Shown here: one piece after another, positions 1 to 13,624 of the stretch
How the letters are laid out: each line of letters starts with the position of its first letter
How positions within the stretch are numbered: position 1 is the stretch's first letter
DNA from: Candidatus Undinarchaeales archaeon SRR5007147.bin71
GTDB lineage: Archaea > Undinarchaeota > Undinarchaeia > Undinarchaeales > Undinarchaeaceae
Direction: 5' to 3'
DNA: 15,026 bases
Assembly: GCA_014189675.1 (NCBI GenBank)
Contig: DVAE01000038.1
Span: 1 to 15,026 of the forward strand
Program-made: the position numbers and the translations under genes
Notes under the pieces: model-generated
The model's database searches: none
What the model was told of the DNA's origin: nothing
What the model saw: the letters and a program-made list of their open reading frames with translations, nothing else

Positions 1-1458
1 ATCGTCAATACCCATTCCTTCAAGACTCTCGATGTGAAGTAGTCCCATTGCAGTTCGCAGCCAGAGCTGATACTTTTCCGTGATTTCAGCAGAGTTCATC
101 TCCCTCCATTCCCCTCCTGAAAGAGCGTCCGAAAAATCTTTCCACTCAGAGGGTATGTCTCCCTTCTTTTTGTATTCCCTAGTCTTCCCCTCAAAAGGAT
201 CAAAGATAGGTGGAATATAACCAGGTGGCAGCAAACCCGAAAGCACAACAGGTGGCTCAGCAAGAAGCTTCAGAAGAAGCTCTTCAGTAATCCATACATA
301 ACCATCTTCTCCAAAGCGCTTACCCCAACTGTTCCTGATTTTGAAGGCTTTGACTCCACCACCTTTGTGTGGATAGTGTGAGTGGTAACCAACAAGCGTC
401 ATTGCATGACATTCTTCTTTACCACCTGAAGGTTTTGTGTAAGGAGATTTTGTACTATAGTTAAAATTTCCGTAAGTATGAATCGCGATGTATATTGGGT
501 CTCCTTGTTTCAGCCAGGATATCCACTCTGAAGTGTCATTCATAGAAAGTTTTAGAGATTTCTCTGCACCTCTTCGTCTTGCATCTGCTTGTATGTCAGC
601 ACTATTTTCAGGTCCCTCTGTAGGATTCTGTTTGAATTTATTTGGATCATCTGAGTCTTTGTCCTTATATCCCCACAAAGCCTCCGTGCAAATTCCCTCA
701 TATGACGCCCTTGATTTAGTTGTAATACATGCAAAAATATTTTGAGTATGGCTGCCATTATCCACATATTTCGCTCCAGCTCCTCGCCCGAAATAGTAAA
801 GGAAGAGGGGAGAAAGTACCTCATCTCTTCCACTAATATTATTGTAATACTCCACCATGCAAGACGCAGCAAATGCGGAGCAAGAACCTAATTTTCCTTG
901 AGATCTTACACCCAGAAAGTTTTCAGAAAGGTCTATCAAGATTTCTTCAGCATTAATTTCTTCTTTTTCGGAATCTGACAGCTCATCAGCCCCCTCTATC
1001 TCATCGAGGTCTTCGTCGATGTGGAGCTGAGGCTCTTCTCGCTTTTCATCCGGCATATCCGGGTCGCTATCTAGAGGGTCTACCAAATCTACCAGACCTT
1101 CTGGATCTATTCCCTCTCTTCTCCTGCCAGCGTCTTCTTCATCCCCAGGCTCAGGAGTAGATCTTCGTCTTCTGCCAGATCCTCCGCCAAAGCCTGATTG
1201 ACGAAATAGGAAAATAAGTGCCACTGCAGCTACCATGAGAATAATTATTCCAGAGCCGCCACCTCCGCCGCCAGTGGCTCCGCCACCTGCTCCGGCACCA
1301 ATAGCAGAACCGCCTCCGCCACCTCCGCCGAAGGAAATACCACCAAAACTCTCCATTATGCCCAGACCAAGGAGTCTGTCAGCAAGGAAGAGTGCGCCTA
1401 TAATTACAATAAGAACTATGAGGATTTTACCAAATTTTCCATACTTTTTCTTAAGCAT
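1..1458 (-). CDS. Membrane-anchored papain-like (C1A) cysteine protease, C-terminus off the window
   Basis: Reading from ATG at 1458, the frame stays open for 486 codons to the window edge, so the 3' end is missing. The N-terminus has a hydrophobic helix (about residues 11-30), a Gly-rich stretch (about 37-69), a second hydrophobic helix (about 70-86), an RRRR cluster and a long acidic linker (about 100-175). A papain-type core follows: QGKLGSCSAFA with oxyanion Gln187 and nucleophile Cys193, His351 in CHAMTLVGY, and Asn376 in RNSWG. The full Gln/Cys/His/Asn set implies an active endopeptidase. The usual Trp after the Cys is Ser. The N-terminal KKK before helix 1 and RRRR after helix 2 predict, by the positive-inside rule, a hairpin anchor with the protease on the cytoplasmic side. 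This is inference; if helix 1 were a cleaved signal the topology would flip. Substrate unknown. Confidence 0.88.
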   Translation of the reverse strand, partial: MLKKKYGKFGKILIVLIVIIGALFLADRLLGLGIMESFGGISFGGGGGGGSAIGAGAGGGATGGGGGGSGIIILMVAAVALIFLFRQSGFGGGSGRRRRSTPEPGDEEDAGRRREGIDPEGLVDLVDPLDSDPDMPDEKREEPQLHIDEDLDEIEGADELSDSEKEEINAEEILIDLSENFLGVRSQGKLGSCSAFAASCMVEYYNNISGRDEVLSPLFLYYFGRGAGAKYVDNGSHTQNIFACITTKSRASYEGICTEALWGYKDKDSDDPNKFKQNPTEGPENSADIQADARRRGAEKSLKLSMNDTSEWISWLKQGDPIYIAIHTYGNFNYSTKSPYTKPSGGKEECHAMTLVGYHSHYPHKGGGVKAFKIRNSWGKRFGEDGYVWITEELLLKLLAEPPVVLSGLLPPGYIPPIFDPFEGKTREYKKKGDIPSEWKDFSDALSGGEWREMNSAEITEKYQLWLRTAMGLLHIESLEGMGIDD

Positions 1459-2532: not shown

Positions 2533-3102
2533 TTAGAGCCAGTCCCCAGAGGGTCTCTCTTTTGGCTTTTCATCTTCTTCAGACTCTATATCTTCACTTT
2601 GGTCTGAACTTGAAGTATCTGTTGTAGATGAACCCGGTAAATCAAAAAATGCAAAGCTTGAAGGAGACTCTGTAGAAGCAGGAACGCCATCTCCGCTTTT
2701 GACAAGAGCTTCAGGATATTTTATTCCAAGCACCCTCAGAGCAAGATAGGCGGCATTTTTTCCATTATCAACGCCGACAGCCGCAACCGGGACTCCGGAA
2801 GGCATCTGTACTGTCGAAAGCAGACTGTCCAAACCACCGAGTTTCGCATCTACTGGAACTCCGATAACTGGTTTCGCGGTTATGCTTGCAACAAATCCTG
2901 GAAGTGCGGCAGATAGACTGGCCACGCAAATAAAAACATCTGATTCAGAATCGAGAACTATTTCTCGAACTCTGTCAGGATTTTTGTGTGCAGAAGAGAC
3001 TTCACAAAGATAGGGAACTTCGTAAACATCCAGAACTTTTTTTACAGACTCGGCTATATGCATATCTGTTTCCGAGCCAACTAATAGTGTTATGTGATTC
3101 AT
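2533..3102 (-). CDS. purE: PurE, phosphoribosylaminoimidazole carboxylase/mutase, with acidic tail
   Basis: Purine biosynthesis PurE fold. The substrate loop is VGSETDMHI (canonical GS.SD), and SSAHKNPDR carries the catalytic His39. Core motifs SAALPGFVASITAKPVIGVP and GGLDSLLSTVQMPSGVPVA follow, then VGVDNGKNAA. Where bacterial class I enzymes have AHLPG this has AALPG (Ala66), together with an archaeal-style VDNGKNAA end, so AIR carboxylase versus N5-CAIR mutase activity is not decidable by eye. Residues about 143-189 are a Ser/Asp/Glu-rich tail absent from compact PurE enzymes. Start: ATG 3102, with GAGGT six bases upstream and an ATGA overlap with the pfkB stop. A longer reading from 3183 runs inside pfkB and is not credible. 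Third gene of the purD-like/pfkB/purE operon. Confidence 0.88.
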   Translation of the reverse strand: MNHITLLVGSETDMHIAESVKKVLDVYEVPYLCEVSSAHKNPDRVREIVLDSESDVFICVASLSAALPGFVASITAKPVIGVPVDAKLGGLDSLLSTVQMPSGVPVAAVGVDNGKNAAYLALRVLGIKYPEALVKSGDGVPASTESPSSFAFFDLPGSSTTDTSSSDQSEDIESEEDEKPKERPSGDWL

Positions 3103-4013
3103 TCGATTACCTCTTGCGCACTTTTTGCGAGCAGCTGCTTCATTGTTGGAAGACCTTCTCTTGCACCCATATGCTGGATACACAAGGAAGCCACTTTACT
3201 TCCCATTTTTCCAGACTCAGACAGTGTGCGTCCCGCAAGGATTCCCGCAAGAAAACCTGCAGCGTAGGCATCCCCAGATCCGGTGGTGTCCACAACATTA
3301 ACCGGGTATGCTGGGATATTATATGACTCTTTCCTTGACGAAACATACGAGCCTTCCTTTCCACGTGTCACGGCAACTCTTTGGATACCGAGCTTAAAGA
3401 GCCTGCTGCACGCGCCTTCGTAGGAATCGTCCATTAAGTATTTTAATTCAGATTCGTTGATGAAAAGTGTGTCTGTCTTCTTGAGTATTGGAATTAGCTC
3501 ACTGTAACCGAAATGAGACATCACCTTGCCGGGAGAAAAGCTCAGTTTTGTTTTTCCAATTTTTTTGACAAGCGCATTCTGAAGGTCTATCTTGCTACTA
3601 TCTACAAAAGAAGACATATGAAAATACTTTGCTTTTTTAATCTGCTCAATATCAAGGTCATCTAACTCAAATTCCTGAGCCACACCAGGATCTCTGTAAA
3701 ATCTTGGAGAACCAGCTCTGTCAACTAGAGCAAGTATTTTTGAGGTCTGACCTTTTTTTCTTGCTACTCCTGATATTCTAACTGACTCTTTTTTGAGGAT
3801 TTCAACAATTATCTTTCCTGCGGAATCAGAACCTACAACTCCCAAAGCAGCCGTCCTGAAGCCGAGTCTAGAAAGACCAACAAGAGTATTTGCGGCTGAA
3901 CCGCCCGCCTCTTCTCTTTGCTCAAGTATGCGAGCTTCTCTTCCATATGATGCAGAATCTACTTTGTAAAGAAGATCCAGATTCAGATTTCCAAAACCTA
4001 CTAGGTCAAGCAT
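3099..4013 (-). CDS. PfkB/ribokinase-family sugar or nucleoside kinase
   Basis: A 304-residue kinase of the PfkB (ribokinase) fold. The N-terminus has FGNLNLDLL with substrate-contact Asp; AGGSAANT (36-43) is the family GG...N substrate loop. NESE (186-189) is the NxxE phosphate/Mg motif and DTTGSGDAYAAGF (242-254) is the C-terminal signature with catalytic base Asp248. All catalytic elements are present, so it should be active, using ATP to phosphorylate a sugar or nucleoside hydroxyl. The substrate is not readable; archaeal relatives include nucleoside, ADP-glucose-type and KDG kinases, and the purD/purE context favours a nucleoside or ribosyl substrate (inference). Its ATG lies inside the end of the purD-like gene (8-nt overlap), preceded by GGAGG at 4023-4027. 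Its stop overlaps the purE start, so the operon is translationally coupled. Confidence 0.88.
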   Translation of the reverse strand: MLDLVGFGNLNLDLLYKVDSASYGREARILEQREEAGGSAANTLVGLSRLGFRTAALGVVGSDSAGKIIVEILKKESVRISGVARKKGQTSKILALVDRAGSPRFYRDPGVAQEFELDDLDIEQIKKAKYFHMSSFVDSSKIDLQNALVKKIGKTKLSFSPGKVMSHFGYSELIPILKKTDTLFINESELKYLMDDSYEGACSRLFKLGIQRVAVTRGKEGSYVSSRKESYNIPAYPVNVVDTTGSGDAYAAGFLAGILAGRTLSESGKMGSKVASLCIQHMGAREGLPTMKQLLAKSAQEVIE

Positions 4014-5304
4014 TTTGAAGTTCCTCCATTTTTTTCATAGATTTCTGAGCAAGTCCTATAGTCCCTATGTCCTTTCTATAGAATAAATTTTCGGAATTTA
4101 CAGCAGAAATTGCAGACTCAACAAAATCTTCCGCAGTCTCGTGAGAATCTGCCACTGACAGAAGTGCAAGTGACCTGCCTTTAGAGGTGTATAATTTCCC
4201 GTCCTTGATGCTGACACTATTGTAGTACAGATCGGCGCCTTCCATGGATATTTTATCCTCGTCAACACTAAGAGGGATACCAATCTTCGGTTTTTCCGGA
4301 TATCCAAGAGGAACTAAATATTTGCAAACAGATGCCTTCTTTTTGAATTCTATGCTTGGCCATAGTTTCCCCTCGAGAATGGACATACACAAGTGAGAAA
4401 AATCTGTTTTTAGAAGAGATAAAACATTGAGTGCTTCAGGATCACCAAAACCGGCAGAAATATTAAGAAGTTTTGGACCCCCTGAAGTAATTATAAAGCG
4501 AGCGCAGAGAACCCCCCTATAGACTGAATTGTGTTCTGATTTCAAAGCTCTTAGAAGTTTTAGGAGAATTGACAAAGACTTTTCTGCATCCTCAGCACTA
4601 ATGTAGGGAAGAAGATGATTTGACTCAGAATAAGTTCCTACGCCTTCACTTAAGTTGGTTTTTTCATTTTCTGAAAGAGTGTAACTCTTTACAAGAGGCA
4701 TTGCAGATACAGTTTCACCGTCAGTGAAAACCTGCAATGTGAAGTCCTCGCCTTCTGCTTTTTCCTGGAGAACAACTGAAGAAGAACCAGAAGACTTGTC
4801 CCCAATCGATCTGTAAGCATATTCTCTGGCGAGGTAGGGGTTTTCAAAGTGATTTTCCGGACTTTCGGAAGTGCTGACAGAGAGAGTACTTCCAATATCT
4901 CTGAAGGCATTATTGACTTCGTGACGACTTTCACATGCAGCAAATTTCAAGGAAGCATCCGGAGCATGATCCTGAATAAAAAATCTAAAGAAAGAAGGGT
5001 CCCACTCCAGCCTCGCGCCGGCTCTGCTTGGAGCCACTACCTGGAAGTCGGCTTCTGAAAGAGCATCCCCAACACCAGCTTCGATAACAGTCCCAGGACC
5101 AATGAATATATAATCAGGGTTGACATGTCTGGCAAAGAGTATTACTTCATTTGCATCAAGAATATTGCCTACTTTTATTTCAGAAGCGAGAGAAGAAATT
5201 CCTGGATTGTCTACGGAGACAAAAGCGTAAAGCTCGGAACCTTCGACCATCCTTTTTGCTATGGCGTGCTCACGGGCACCATCACCTATAAGAAGCGACT
5301 TCAT
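4006..5304 (-). CDS. PurD-like (GAR synthetase) protein lacking catalytic residues, probable pseudoenzyme
   Basis: Full-length collinear similarity to archaeal phosphoribosylamine-glycine ligase (432 residues): GDGAREHAIA near the N-terminus, EGEDFTLQVFTDGE (184-197), GFGDPEALN (285-293), CKYLVPLGYP (327-336) and YRKDIGT near the C-terminus. Yet each active-site block is altered. The ATP-grasp lysine/glycine loop (canonical KADGLAAGKGV) is replaced about 138-160 by Ser/Glu/Asn-rich sequence. DHKR...GPNTGGMG is replaced by SYTLSENEKTNLSEGVG (207-223). The Mg-ligand block EFNARFGDPE is NISAGFGDPE (281-290), losing the Glu, Asn and Arg. GPEAP is GPGTV. Length and reading frame are intact, so it appears maintained as a protein without GAR synthetase activity (inference). 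ATG 5304 has GAGGT four bases upstream and a TATA-like TTTAATAA at 5335-5342. First gene of the operon. Confidence 0.82.
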   Translation of the reverse strand: MKSLLIGDGAREHAIAKRMVEGSELYAFVSVDNPGISSLASEIKVGNILDANEVILFARHVNPDYIFIGPGTVIEAGVGDALSEADFQVVAPSRAGARLEWDPSFFRFFIQDHAPDASLKFAACESRHEVNNAFRDIGSTLSVSTSESPENHFENPYLAREYAYRSIGDKSSGSSSVVLQEKAEGEDFTLQVFTDGETVSAMPLVKSYTLSENEKTNLSEGVGTYSESNHLLPYISAEDAEKSLSILLKLLRALKSEHNSVYRGVLCARFIITSGGPKLLNISAGFGDPEALNVLSLLKTDFSHLCMSILEGKLWPSIEFKKKASVCKYLVPLGYPEKPKIGIPLSVDEDKISMEGADLYYNSVSIKDGKLYTSKGRSLALLSVADSHETAEDFVESAISAVNSENLFYRKDIGTIGLAQKSMKKMEELQNA

Positions 5305-11316: not shown

Positions 11317-12153
11317 ATGAAGTGTTCTGCAGTTCTGCTCTCCCCTGGCTTGCGAGAAGGGAAGGATCCCTCATTCCTGGATGTCTATGGAGAAACCATA
11401 CTGGAAATAGCTTTCCGAAATGCCAAGAAGGCCTTCAAAAGAACTCTTGTTGTAGCTGAAAACTACAAAGGGCAAAAAGAATACGAAAAGCTGGTTGACT
11501 GTGATGTTGTCGCTGATATGAGTCCTGAGAAAAACTTTCTGACCCGCCTACTTACAGGGCTCAAGGCCTGCAAAACTCAGTATGCATTCGTTACAACCTG
11601 CGCAATGCCACAGATTGATCCAAAAACTATAGAGTTGATGATGTCCAAAATAGAGGAAACGGAATATGACGCTGTTATTCCAAAAATAGCTAATTCTCTA
11701 GAGCTTCTGCATTCGATTTACAGAACAGGACCTGTGTCAAAGTCTCTTGAAAACTCTATAGGAGACTTATCCTATGATCTTGAGACAGCTCTTACAAAGA
11801 TGAATACACTTTTCATACCCGAAAGCGAGTTTTCAGAACTTGACCCGGCACTTTCCACATTTTTCAAAGTAGGAAGCGAAATAGACTACCAGACACTCAA
11901 AAATCAATACAGGAAAAAGACTTATAGAAACAGGCTGAAAAAAGCCAGCAGGATTTCATCAGGAACCAGTGCCGAGATAGAAACAGAAAATACCGCGTAT
12001 TACCGGGTTCCAGGAACGGAGAAAAGCCACGAAGTGGCACTAAACAAAAGAAAGAATATGTGGAGCTGCGACTGTCGCTATTTCACTATGAGGGGAAACT
12101 ACTGTTCGCACATACTTGCGAGCCAGAAGAAACGAGATAAAGATGCTGACTGA
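11317..12153 (+). CDS. MobA-like nucleotidyltransferase domain fused to a SWIM zinc finger
   Basis: A 278-residue protein. Residues 1-195 follow the MobA-like NTP-transferase fold: a first strand and loop SAVLLSPGLREGKDPSFL, VVAENY (45-50), a central FLTRLLTGLKACKTQYAFVTTCAMPQID (74-101), the family LELLHSIYR block (128-136), and a late FKVGSEIDYQTL (183-194). Key residues are altered: the loop LAGGxSxRMGxDK is only vaguely kept (LSPGLREGKD), and CDMP is CAMP (Asp to Ala97). True guanylyltransferase activity is therefore doubtful. A basic linker leads to a SWIM zinc finger, C251-x-C253-x9-C263-x-H265, a DNA- or protein-binding module. This domain pairing is unusual. Its end overlaps the DUF359-DHH gene by 11 nt. 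The ATG at 11317 has leaderless spacing. Confidence 0.72.
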   Translation: MKCSAVLLSPGLREGKDPSFLDVYGETILEIAFRNAKKAFKRTLVVAENYKGQKEYEKLVDCDVVADMSPEKNFLTRLLTGLKACKTQYAFVTTCAMPQIDPKTIELMMSKIEETEYDAVIPKIANSLELLHSIYRTGPVSKSLENSIGDLSYDLETALTKMNTLFIPESEFSELDPALSTFFKVGSEIDYQTLKNQYRKKTYRNRLKKASRISSGTSAEIETENTAYYRVPGTEKSHEVALNKRKNMWSCDCRYFTMRGNYCSHILASQKKRDKDAD

Positions 12154-13624
12154 CTTTAAGATAGCAGAAGAAACACGAAAGGATTTGAAGAGTCCAATTG
12201 GAGAGCTCACTGAAGAGCTACCAAGAAGCGGAGATGGACTCATAGCTATAGGAGATGTTACAACGCTGAGGCTCCTCAAAGAAGGTGTAACTCCGGACAT
12301 ATGCGTTATTGACTACAAAGCCGAGAGGGAAGAACTTTCTGAAGAAGATATCAAAACCTTGAAGTCTCTTGATGTGCGAGAGATTAAAGCAACAAACAAT
12401 GCAGGAGAAATATCACTTTCGGCTTGGAGAGCTTTTGAGGATGCTCTAAAAAACACTCCTGCGAAAATAGTGATTGAGGGAGAAGATGACCTCCTGGCAC
12501 TTGTAGCTCTTTTCCTGGCGCCAGAAGGAAGTAGAGTGGTATACGGCCAGCCGGATCTTGGAATGACAATGTTTGAAGTTTCTGACAGAATGCGTCAGAA
12601 ATACGCTGAAGTTCTTATTCACGGAAAAGGCAGGGAGTTCCTAAATGCCATACAGGGTAAAGTCGTAATCGTGCACGACAGCGATGCTGACGGAGCCTGC
12701 TCTGCGATAGTATTAGCAAAATATCTCGAAGATAGGAAAGTCGAAGTTGTCCTGATGGAGAGTAGCGATCCGCTGATACACAGTAATACAAAAAAGGAAA
12801 TCAGAAAGGAGGAGGCAGGAAGTCTTATTGTTCTTGACCTTGGAAGCGAAGCATATGACTCTTTGAAAGAACTTAGTGAGGAGATGCACGTGATGGTTCT
12901 TGACCATCACAAAGTAGTTGGAAGTCCTGATTTCGGAAAAACACTAATTCTAAACCCGCACCTTTTCAATATCCCGGACAATGTTGTCGGACCAACTTCT
13001 TACCTATCCTATGTTATATGCCAGGAGCTAGACTGGGTTTCCGCTATAGGAACCATAGCTGACAAAGGATTCTATCCTGCAGAGGAACTTCTGAAATCTG
13101 TCAAAAACCGATACAAAGTAGATTTTGAAAGATTGAGTCAGATGTTTGAAGCAGGTGCAGTATTGAGGAAGCTGGCAGAAACAAGAGATGCAGTCAGAAA
13201 TGCAGAATCGCCTGAAGAGCTGGAAAAATCTGAAACATTGATTAGCTTTGAGAAGGAGTATTTGCAGGAGCTTGAGAGGCTGAAAAAGCTCCATGAGTCT
13301 GAAGCTGAGGAGCTGGCTGAAGGCAGGATACTATTGTTTGATTTCACTTCAGAATACAGAGTAAGAGGGATGGTGTCAAATATGCTTCAGACTATGTATC
13401 CGAAAAAGTCAATAATAGTAGCAGAGAAGGTCGGGCCGCACTACTACTTCAGTATGAGAGCAGGTGGGCAAGGCGTTGACCTGGTTGAAATAATAAAATA
13501 CGCGGTTGATGGGCTCGCGGAAGCAAACGGCGGTGGACACACCAAGGCAGCCGGTGCCAGAGTAATGGCCGGAGATCGTGACAAGTTCATAAGCGGCTTT
13601 GTTGAAAAGTTCAAGGAAATATAG
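12143..13624 (+). CDS. GTP-dependent dephospho-CoA kinase (DUF359) domain fused to DHH/DHHA1 phosphoesterase
   Basis: A 493-residue two-enzyme fusion. Residues about 10-160 match archaeal GTP-dependent dephospho-CoA kinase: RKDLKSPIGELTE, GDVTTLRLL (37-45), PDICVIDYKAER (51-62), EGEDDLLAL (112-120) and APEGSRVVYGQP (126-137), all family landmarks intact. Residues about 172-310 are a DHH domain: HDSDADGACSA (178-188), DLGS (232-235) and LDHHK (253-257). A coiled linker (about 340-392) leads to DHHA1 with GGGH (463-466). DHH/DHHA1 proteins are RecJ-like nucleases or small-nucleotide phosphodiesterases. The first domain normally performs the last CoA step with GTP. I chose ATG 12143; an upstream TTG at 12116 would overlap the SWIM domain further. 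No strong SD; translation is likely coupled to the upstream gene (11-nt overlap). Confidence 0.88.
   Translation: MLTDFKIAEETRKDLKSPIGELTEELPRSGDGLIAIGDVTTLRLLKEGVTPDICVIDYKAEREELSEEDIKTLKSLDVREIKATNNAGEISLSAWRAFEDALKNTPAKIVIEGEDDLLALVALFLAPEGSRVVYGQPDLGMTMFEVSDRMRQKYAEVLIHGKGREFLNAIQGKVVIVHDSDADGACSAIVLAKYLEDRKVEVVLMESSDPLIHSNTKKEIRKEEAGSLIVLDLGSEAYDSLKELSEEMHVMVLDHHKVVGSPDFGKTLILNPHLFNIPDNVVGPTSYLSYVICQELDWVSAIGTIADKGFYPAEELLKSVKNRYKVDFERLSQMFEAGAVLRKLAETRDAVRNAESPEELEKSETLISFEKEYLQELERLKKLHESEAEELAEGRILLFDFTSEYRVRGMVSNMLQTMYPKKSIIVAEKVGPHYYFSMRAGGQGVDLVEIIKYAVDGLAEANGGGHTKAAGARVMAGDRDKFISGFVEKFKEI

Follow-up and report, generated by a model that had tools for sequence, protein, structure and literature searches.

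The window, by which we mean the whole 15,026-nucleotide stretch of DNA that was analysed, carries an uninterrupted open frame of 493 codons encoding a single protein in which a DUF359 domain is followed by a DHH-DHHA1 phosphoesterase (Table 1). A TTG at 12116 would give a longer frame; the ATG at 12143 is the start conserved in 5/5 fusion genomes. The gene immediately upstream overlaps the fusion gene by 11 nt and stands in the same order at loci L002, L003 and L004, and the small membrane protein downstream adjoins the fusion gene in all five genomes. A promoter scan with the sigma-70 consensus, which is not applicable to archaea, stayed at the level of shuffled sequences, and terminator predictions were little above shuffles. 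Elsewhere in the window, an open-ended ORF at 1-1458(-), read by eye, has the look of a papain-type cysteine peptidase, with an N-terminal membrane segment followed by a glycine-rich stretch. A cluster at 2533-5304(-) comprises a PurE-like ORF, a sugar kinase of the PfkB type (ribose-1-phosphate kinase being its best match in NCBIfam, below cut-off) and PurD; this cluster possibly serves nucleoside salvage or purine synthesis.

Table 1. Features of the fusion gene and its neighbours (positions in the window).
Feature	Position	Strand	Description and evidence
MobA-like NTP transferase with C-terminal SWIM zinc finger	11317..12153	+	PF12804 60.8 bits, PF04434 28.8 bits
Fusion gene	12143..13624	+	DUF359/DPCK - helical linker - DHH - DHHA1, 493 aa; ORF, Pfam, conservation, AF2 model
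DUF359 / GTP-dependent dephospho-CoA kinase (DPCK) domain	12143..12622	+	aa 1-160; PF04019, 8jvc match, catalytic Asp38/Asp57/Asp116
Predicted continuous helix joining the two domains	12584..12649	+	aa 148-169; AF2 secondary structure
DHH domain	12659..12961	+	aa 173-273; PF01368; D181/D183, D232, D254-H255-H256
DHHA1 domain	13367..13609	+	aa 409-489; PF02272; S437-x-R439, GGGH 463-466, invariant columns
Small membrane protein, 122 aa	13660..14028	+	ORF; directly downstream of fusion, homologues in L002-L005

All three Pfam matches exceeded their cut-offs: DUF359 at aa 40-158 (103.5 bits, cut-off 25, E 8e-30), DHH at aa 173-273 (44.1 bits, cut-off 28.1) and DHHA1 at aa 409-489 (31.6 bits, cut-off 25.9). 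The landmarks named in a preliminary description of this gene were all present, namely GDVTT (37-41), VIDYK (55-59), GEDD (113-116) and APEGS (126-130) in the kinase half and DADG (181-184), DHH (254-256) and GGGH (463-466) in the phosphoesterase half. The domain identities that it proposed are thus upheld, and residues 1-160, where it had allowed that a DUF359 match might be missing, hold a strong one (103.5 bits). The AlphaFold2 (AF2) model of the 493-aa protein had a pLDDT of 83.9 and a pTM of 0.74, and no regulatory domain was seen in the protein.

The window genome (623,718 bases, 83% complete) has two relatives in the same genus and three more genomes in the same order, and these six were counted as Undinarchaeota, the phylum in which Naiadarchaeum is classified. 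The same fusion was present in five of the six, spanning three genera; the carriers besides the window genome were Ca. Naiadarchaeum limnaeum, UBA55, UBA543 and ARS1358, and the four other proteins were 95, 90, 39 and 40% identical to the window protein over their full length. The five proteins share the start methionine and are collinear to the end, and each is the sole DUF359 in its genome. The one Undinarchaeota genome without the fusion, G004, is 75% complete and lies in 190 contigs. Because the join recurs in four other MAGs besides that of the window, an assembly error or chimera was ruled out, and the fusion is real, as the preliminary description had held. In a search of 394 archaeal genomes, these five Undinarchaeota alone gave full-length matches at E 1e-18 or better, and all other hits contained just one of the two halves, DUF359 or the DHH part, the latter in proteins of about 345-410 aa; within this set, the fusion architecture is special to Undinarchaeota. 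A search for plasmid relatives matched only distant Deinococcus hypothetical proteins. Both halves are under purifying selection, with NG86 dN/dS values of 0.06-0.14 in both halves within the window's genus. In the DUF359 tree, the five fusion kinase halves grouped together with support of 71/84, which is weakly consistent with one clade and a single origin of the kinase half. We also considered an ancestral operon of separate genes, and this was rejected: in some genomes, in-frame extensions past DUF359 had the look of an adjacent DHH gene, but at L012 and L080-L082, the cases read, the neighbour appears from its sequence to be ribosomal protein S24e and not DHH.

The closest solved relative of the kinase half was the Thermococcus kodakarensis DPCK (8jvc, E 1.5e-16), with which aa 3-163 of the AF2 model aligned at Z 20.6 and an rmsd of 2.4 Å over 154 residues. 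D38, D57 and D116 are the equivalents of D48, D67 and D125 of the T. kodakarensis enzyme TK1697 and are invariant in 23 aligned sequences; alanine mutants of these TK1697 residues gave slower growth of a complemented knockout (PMC6650551). The wider DUF359 motif set (GD, D-x-K-x-x-R, GE-x-DL and YGQP) is also fully retained in the fusion. The score against the NCBIfam model of the known DPCK equivalog, NF041125, was below cut-off (72.9 bits against 300); this model is specific to Thermococcales, and the miss therefore bears on orthology within Thermococcales only. Homology suggests that the N-terminal half would be a GTP-dependent dephospho-CoA kinase in activity. The preliminary description took archaeal DUF359 enzymes to be stand-alone proteins, but DUF359-PPAT fusions have been published (PMC6650551) and are also present at L073, L074 and L075. 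Two further DUF359 loci were observed. In an archaeon outside Undinarchaeota (G220; L072, 819-1916(-)), DUF359 is part of another fusion, with a P-loop kinase-like region (GTPGTGKT) on its N-terminal side, and on a 1.02-Mb contig assigned to Candidatus Gottesmanbacteria (L042, 6001-6396(+)), the normally archaeal DUF359 is possibly the result of lateral transfer or misbinning.

In the phosphoesterase half, the metal-ligand residues (D181, D183, D232, D254-H255-H256 and D307) do not vary among the fusions and seven stand-alone relatives, and neither do the S-x-R pair or the GGH of GGGH; D307 belongs to motif IV and follows closely after the DHH domain. The enzyme class, a DHH-DHHA1 phosphoesterase, is firm, but no firm choice can be made among pAp, nanoRNA and longer nucleic acid as candidate substrates, because the structural comparison is nearly tied and the sequence profiles disagree between 8a8k and RecJ/HAN. 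For aa 172-493 of the AF2 model, the top structural match was the Methanothermococcus thermolithotrophicus pAp phosphatase 8a8k (Z 22.2, 3.3 Å, 294 residues), with RecJ cores at Z about 20-21, only 1-2 below it and thus near a tie. A profile of the fusions and stand-alone relatives covered 8a8k in one stretch (E 6e-22), whereas a fusion-only profile at E 0.01 matched archaeal RecJ/HAN and not 8a8k; in sequence-profile comparisons, the fused DHH domain likewise matched archaeal RecJ/HAN best. The score against the archaeal RecJ equivalog NF053576 fell below cut-off (88.6 bits against 360). Of the substrates suggested in the preliminary description, pAp fits the best structural match but sits poorly with the fusion-only profile, which favours archaeal RecJ, and nothing was found in support of c-di-AMP or of a kinase acting on nucleic-acid ends. 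One source of pAp is phosphopantetheinyl transferase. No such enzyme was found in the six Undinarchaeota genomes, a search for the ACPS domain giving none, and a supply of pAp by holo-ACP synthesis was rejected on this ground. Related archaeal arCOGs have been placed in the COG2404 (NrnB) clade by Makarova et al. (PMC3307487).

Stand-alone relatives of the DHH half (E 1e-18) occurred in about 46 genomes, only four of which had DUF359; in the other genomes the share with DUF359 was roughly three quarters, a difference that probably owes much to lineage. Of 17 genomes from other groups with such a relative, 15 had no DFP either, and DUF359 was absent from all of those in which it was looked for. 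In the window's genus (three genomes), no DHH domain other than that of the fusion was found. An unfused DHH protein of NrnA type, adjoining exosome genes, is present in G003, G004 and G005, its carriers including Naiadarchaeum and UBA543, so the fused DHH domain is not the sole nanoRNase candidate in G003 and G005. At L007 (1489-3141(-)) and L014 (912-2532(+)), stand-alone relatives of the DHH half have, as read by eye, an HD-domain hydrolase as neighbour, with genes resembling isoleucyl-tRNA synthetase and fibrillarin/Nop5 close by, suggesting an RNA-turnover setting for these two.

The upstream CoA pathway was not detected in Undinarchaeota, and the fusion is the only CoA-synthesis gene found. 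In MAGs of 75-98% completeness, DFP/CoaBC (PF04127) and the archaeal phosphopantothenate synthetase PPS (PF02006) were each found in 0/6 Undinarchaeota genomes, bacterial-type CoaE was absent from all six, leaving no second DPCK of that type, and PF01467 (PPAT) was found in 0/3 genomes of the window's genus. PF01467 matches in the other genera were rejected as PPAT, their motifs reading instead as NMN adenylyltransferase (GRFQPFHxGH), HldE-like or RibL-like. An acetate-CoA ligase-type CoA-ligase domain scored above cut-off in three of the six genomes. The published account of the phylum lists acdA and a pathway for nucleoside degradation, and notes that vitamin synthesis is missing (PMC7414124). 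An AMP-phosphorylase/RuBisCO route has also been reported for the phylum. The link to CoA metabolism drawn in the preliminary description has become more puzzling because the upstream pathway genes were not found. With this pathway undetected, a CoA-using ligase present in three genomes and DUF359 mostly lacking from the genomes of the DHH relatives, the puzzle is therefore why the last-step kinase has been kept and joined to a phosphoesterase. Separately, at locus L053 (862-1890(-), genome G004), a RibL-like nucleotidyltransferase, read by eye, is apparently fused to a TraB-like domain.

Dephospho-CoA kinase phosphorylates a 5'-phosphorylated adenosine at its 3'-oxygen, the very atom whose esters are hydrolysed by DHH enzymes of the pAp-phosphatase/nanoRNase type. 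Our best reading, which we hold tentatively and with somewhat less than even confidence, is that the fusion may be a bifunctional cofactor/nucleotide salvage enzyme special to Undinarchaeota. Judged by homology, the N-terminal domain would phosphorylate the 3'-OH of dephospho-CoA with GTP to give CoA, and the C-terminal domain would be a Mn-dependent phosphoesterase acting at the 3' position of small nucleotides, with 2-5-nt oligonucleotides and/or pAp as substrates and 5'-NMPs as products of the hydrolysis. Speculatively, the halves may have been joined because both act on the 3'-oxygen of 5'-phosphorylated adenosine: the DHH half could trim products of nucleotide and CoA degradation that are acquired from a partner or with imported nucleic acid, the AMP that it releases could be fed into the AMP-phosphorylase/RuBisCO route, and the kinase half could restore CoA from scavenged dephospho-CoA for acetate-CoA ligase. 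Each activity is supported separately by homology, and the link between them is a guess. What speaks against salvage is that a kinase dependent on dephospho-CoA would have little purpose where PPAT is lacking, unless its substrate is imported. The broader interpretation offered in the preliminary description, a phosphoesterase and a kinase tied to CoA metabolism, is partly supported: it stands as to the domains and the join.

Other scenarios were weighed against the salvage enzyme. The two halves could be independent, a DPCK for salvage and a DHH domain for housekeeping nanoRNase work, joined by stop-codon loss in a shrinking genome and sharing no substrate; we regard this as fairly unlikely. 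It accords with the fusion being the only DHH protein found in the window's genus and with stand-alone relatives being common in other small archaeal genomes, two of them near the IleRS-like, HD-hydrolase and fibrillarin/Nop5-like genes, but the join has been kept across three genera, and Naiadarchaeum and UBA543 have their separate NrnA-type DHH protein beside exosome genes. It is unlikely that the DUF359 half, after the loss of CoA synthesis, took to phosphorylating a new 3'-OH, that of some other nucleotide or of a short RNA/DNA end, with the DHH half removing or hydrolysing the product, which would make the protein a nucleic-acid end-processing or signalling enzyme. The upstream CoA enzymes were not found and yet both halves are under purifying selection, and the DHH half is nuclease-like by sequence, which speaks for such a change; however, the catalytic Asp residues and the wider DUF359 motif set are all kept, the structural match to DPCK is close (Z 20.6), and a CoA-using ligase is present in relatives. 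A single protein setting the CoA to dephospho-CoA ratio, with the DHH half dephosphorylating CoA or pAp and the kinase half rephosphorylating it, seems very improbable: in its favour, the structure that the DHH half matches best is that of a 3'-phosphatase whose target, the 3'-phosphoadenosine group, is also part of CoA, but that enzyme is reported to be highly specific for pAp (PMC10322725), a futile cycle would cost GTP, and the fusion shows no regulatory domain. Likewise very improbable is RNA-cap recycling, in which the DHH half would digest dephospho-CoA-capped RNA oligomers, such caps having been reported in bacteria (PMC9326634), to dephospho-CoA and NMPs, and the fused kinase would at once make CoA from the cap, so that an archaeon unable to make CoA would get it from nucleic acid.

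The preliminary description named the pairing as one not known to be characterised, and we found no description of a DUF359/DPCK-DHH-DHHA1 architecture in the open-licence literature searched (DUF359; Undinarchaeota and coenzyme A; DPCK and DHH). The component enzyme families are already known, and it is the DPCK-phosphoesterase join that is new with respect to this literature. CoA synthesis is lacking in several archaea that have small genomes and probably depend on hosts. In Undinarchaeota, which are tiny and little-known archaea, the last-step kinase alone has been kept and welded to a phosphoesterase, which offers one expressible protein for probing CoA scavenging or a change of kinase substrate and points to either a salvage route or a changed job. 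The fusion would also connect the pan-archaeal DPCK with the metabolism of 3'-phosphonucleotides, and no such connection was met with in the literature searched.

Compared with known systems, the closest sequence relatives of the DHH half are the stand-alone compact DHH-DHHA1 proteins of other small archaeal genomes (about 345-410 aa, 23-34% identity), which differ in being unfused and in belonging to genomes mostly without DUF359. The archaeal DHH-type pAp phosphatases (MtPAPP, PDB 8a8k, PMC10322725; PyapApase, PMC8268124) share with the C-terminal half the compact DHH-linker-DHHA1 plan and the same metal-ligand motifs, but they stand alone and are about 16% identical to it. Archaeal RecJ2/HAN/GAN and the bacterial NrnA/NrnB nanoRNases have the same DHH-DHHA1 core and motifs; the RecJ/HAN/GAN proteins, however, are longer chains (430-500 aa) that match as two separated stretches, and none of the enzymes in either group is joined to a DPCK domain. 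On the kinase side, TK1697 of Thermococcus kodakarensis (arCOG04076/DUF359; PDB 8jvc, 8jvf and 8jvg) resembles the N-terminal half in its fold, its three Asp residues and about 30% identity, but it is a stand-alone enzyme in an organism with the whole CoA pathway, whereas the Undinarchaeota kinase is joined to DHH-DHHA1 where that pathway was not detected. The PPAT-DUF359 fusions of uncultured archaea, like the Undinarchaeota protein, join DUF359 to a second enzyme domain, but their partner is the preceding enzyme of CoA synthesis and not a phosphoesterase.
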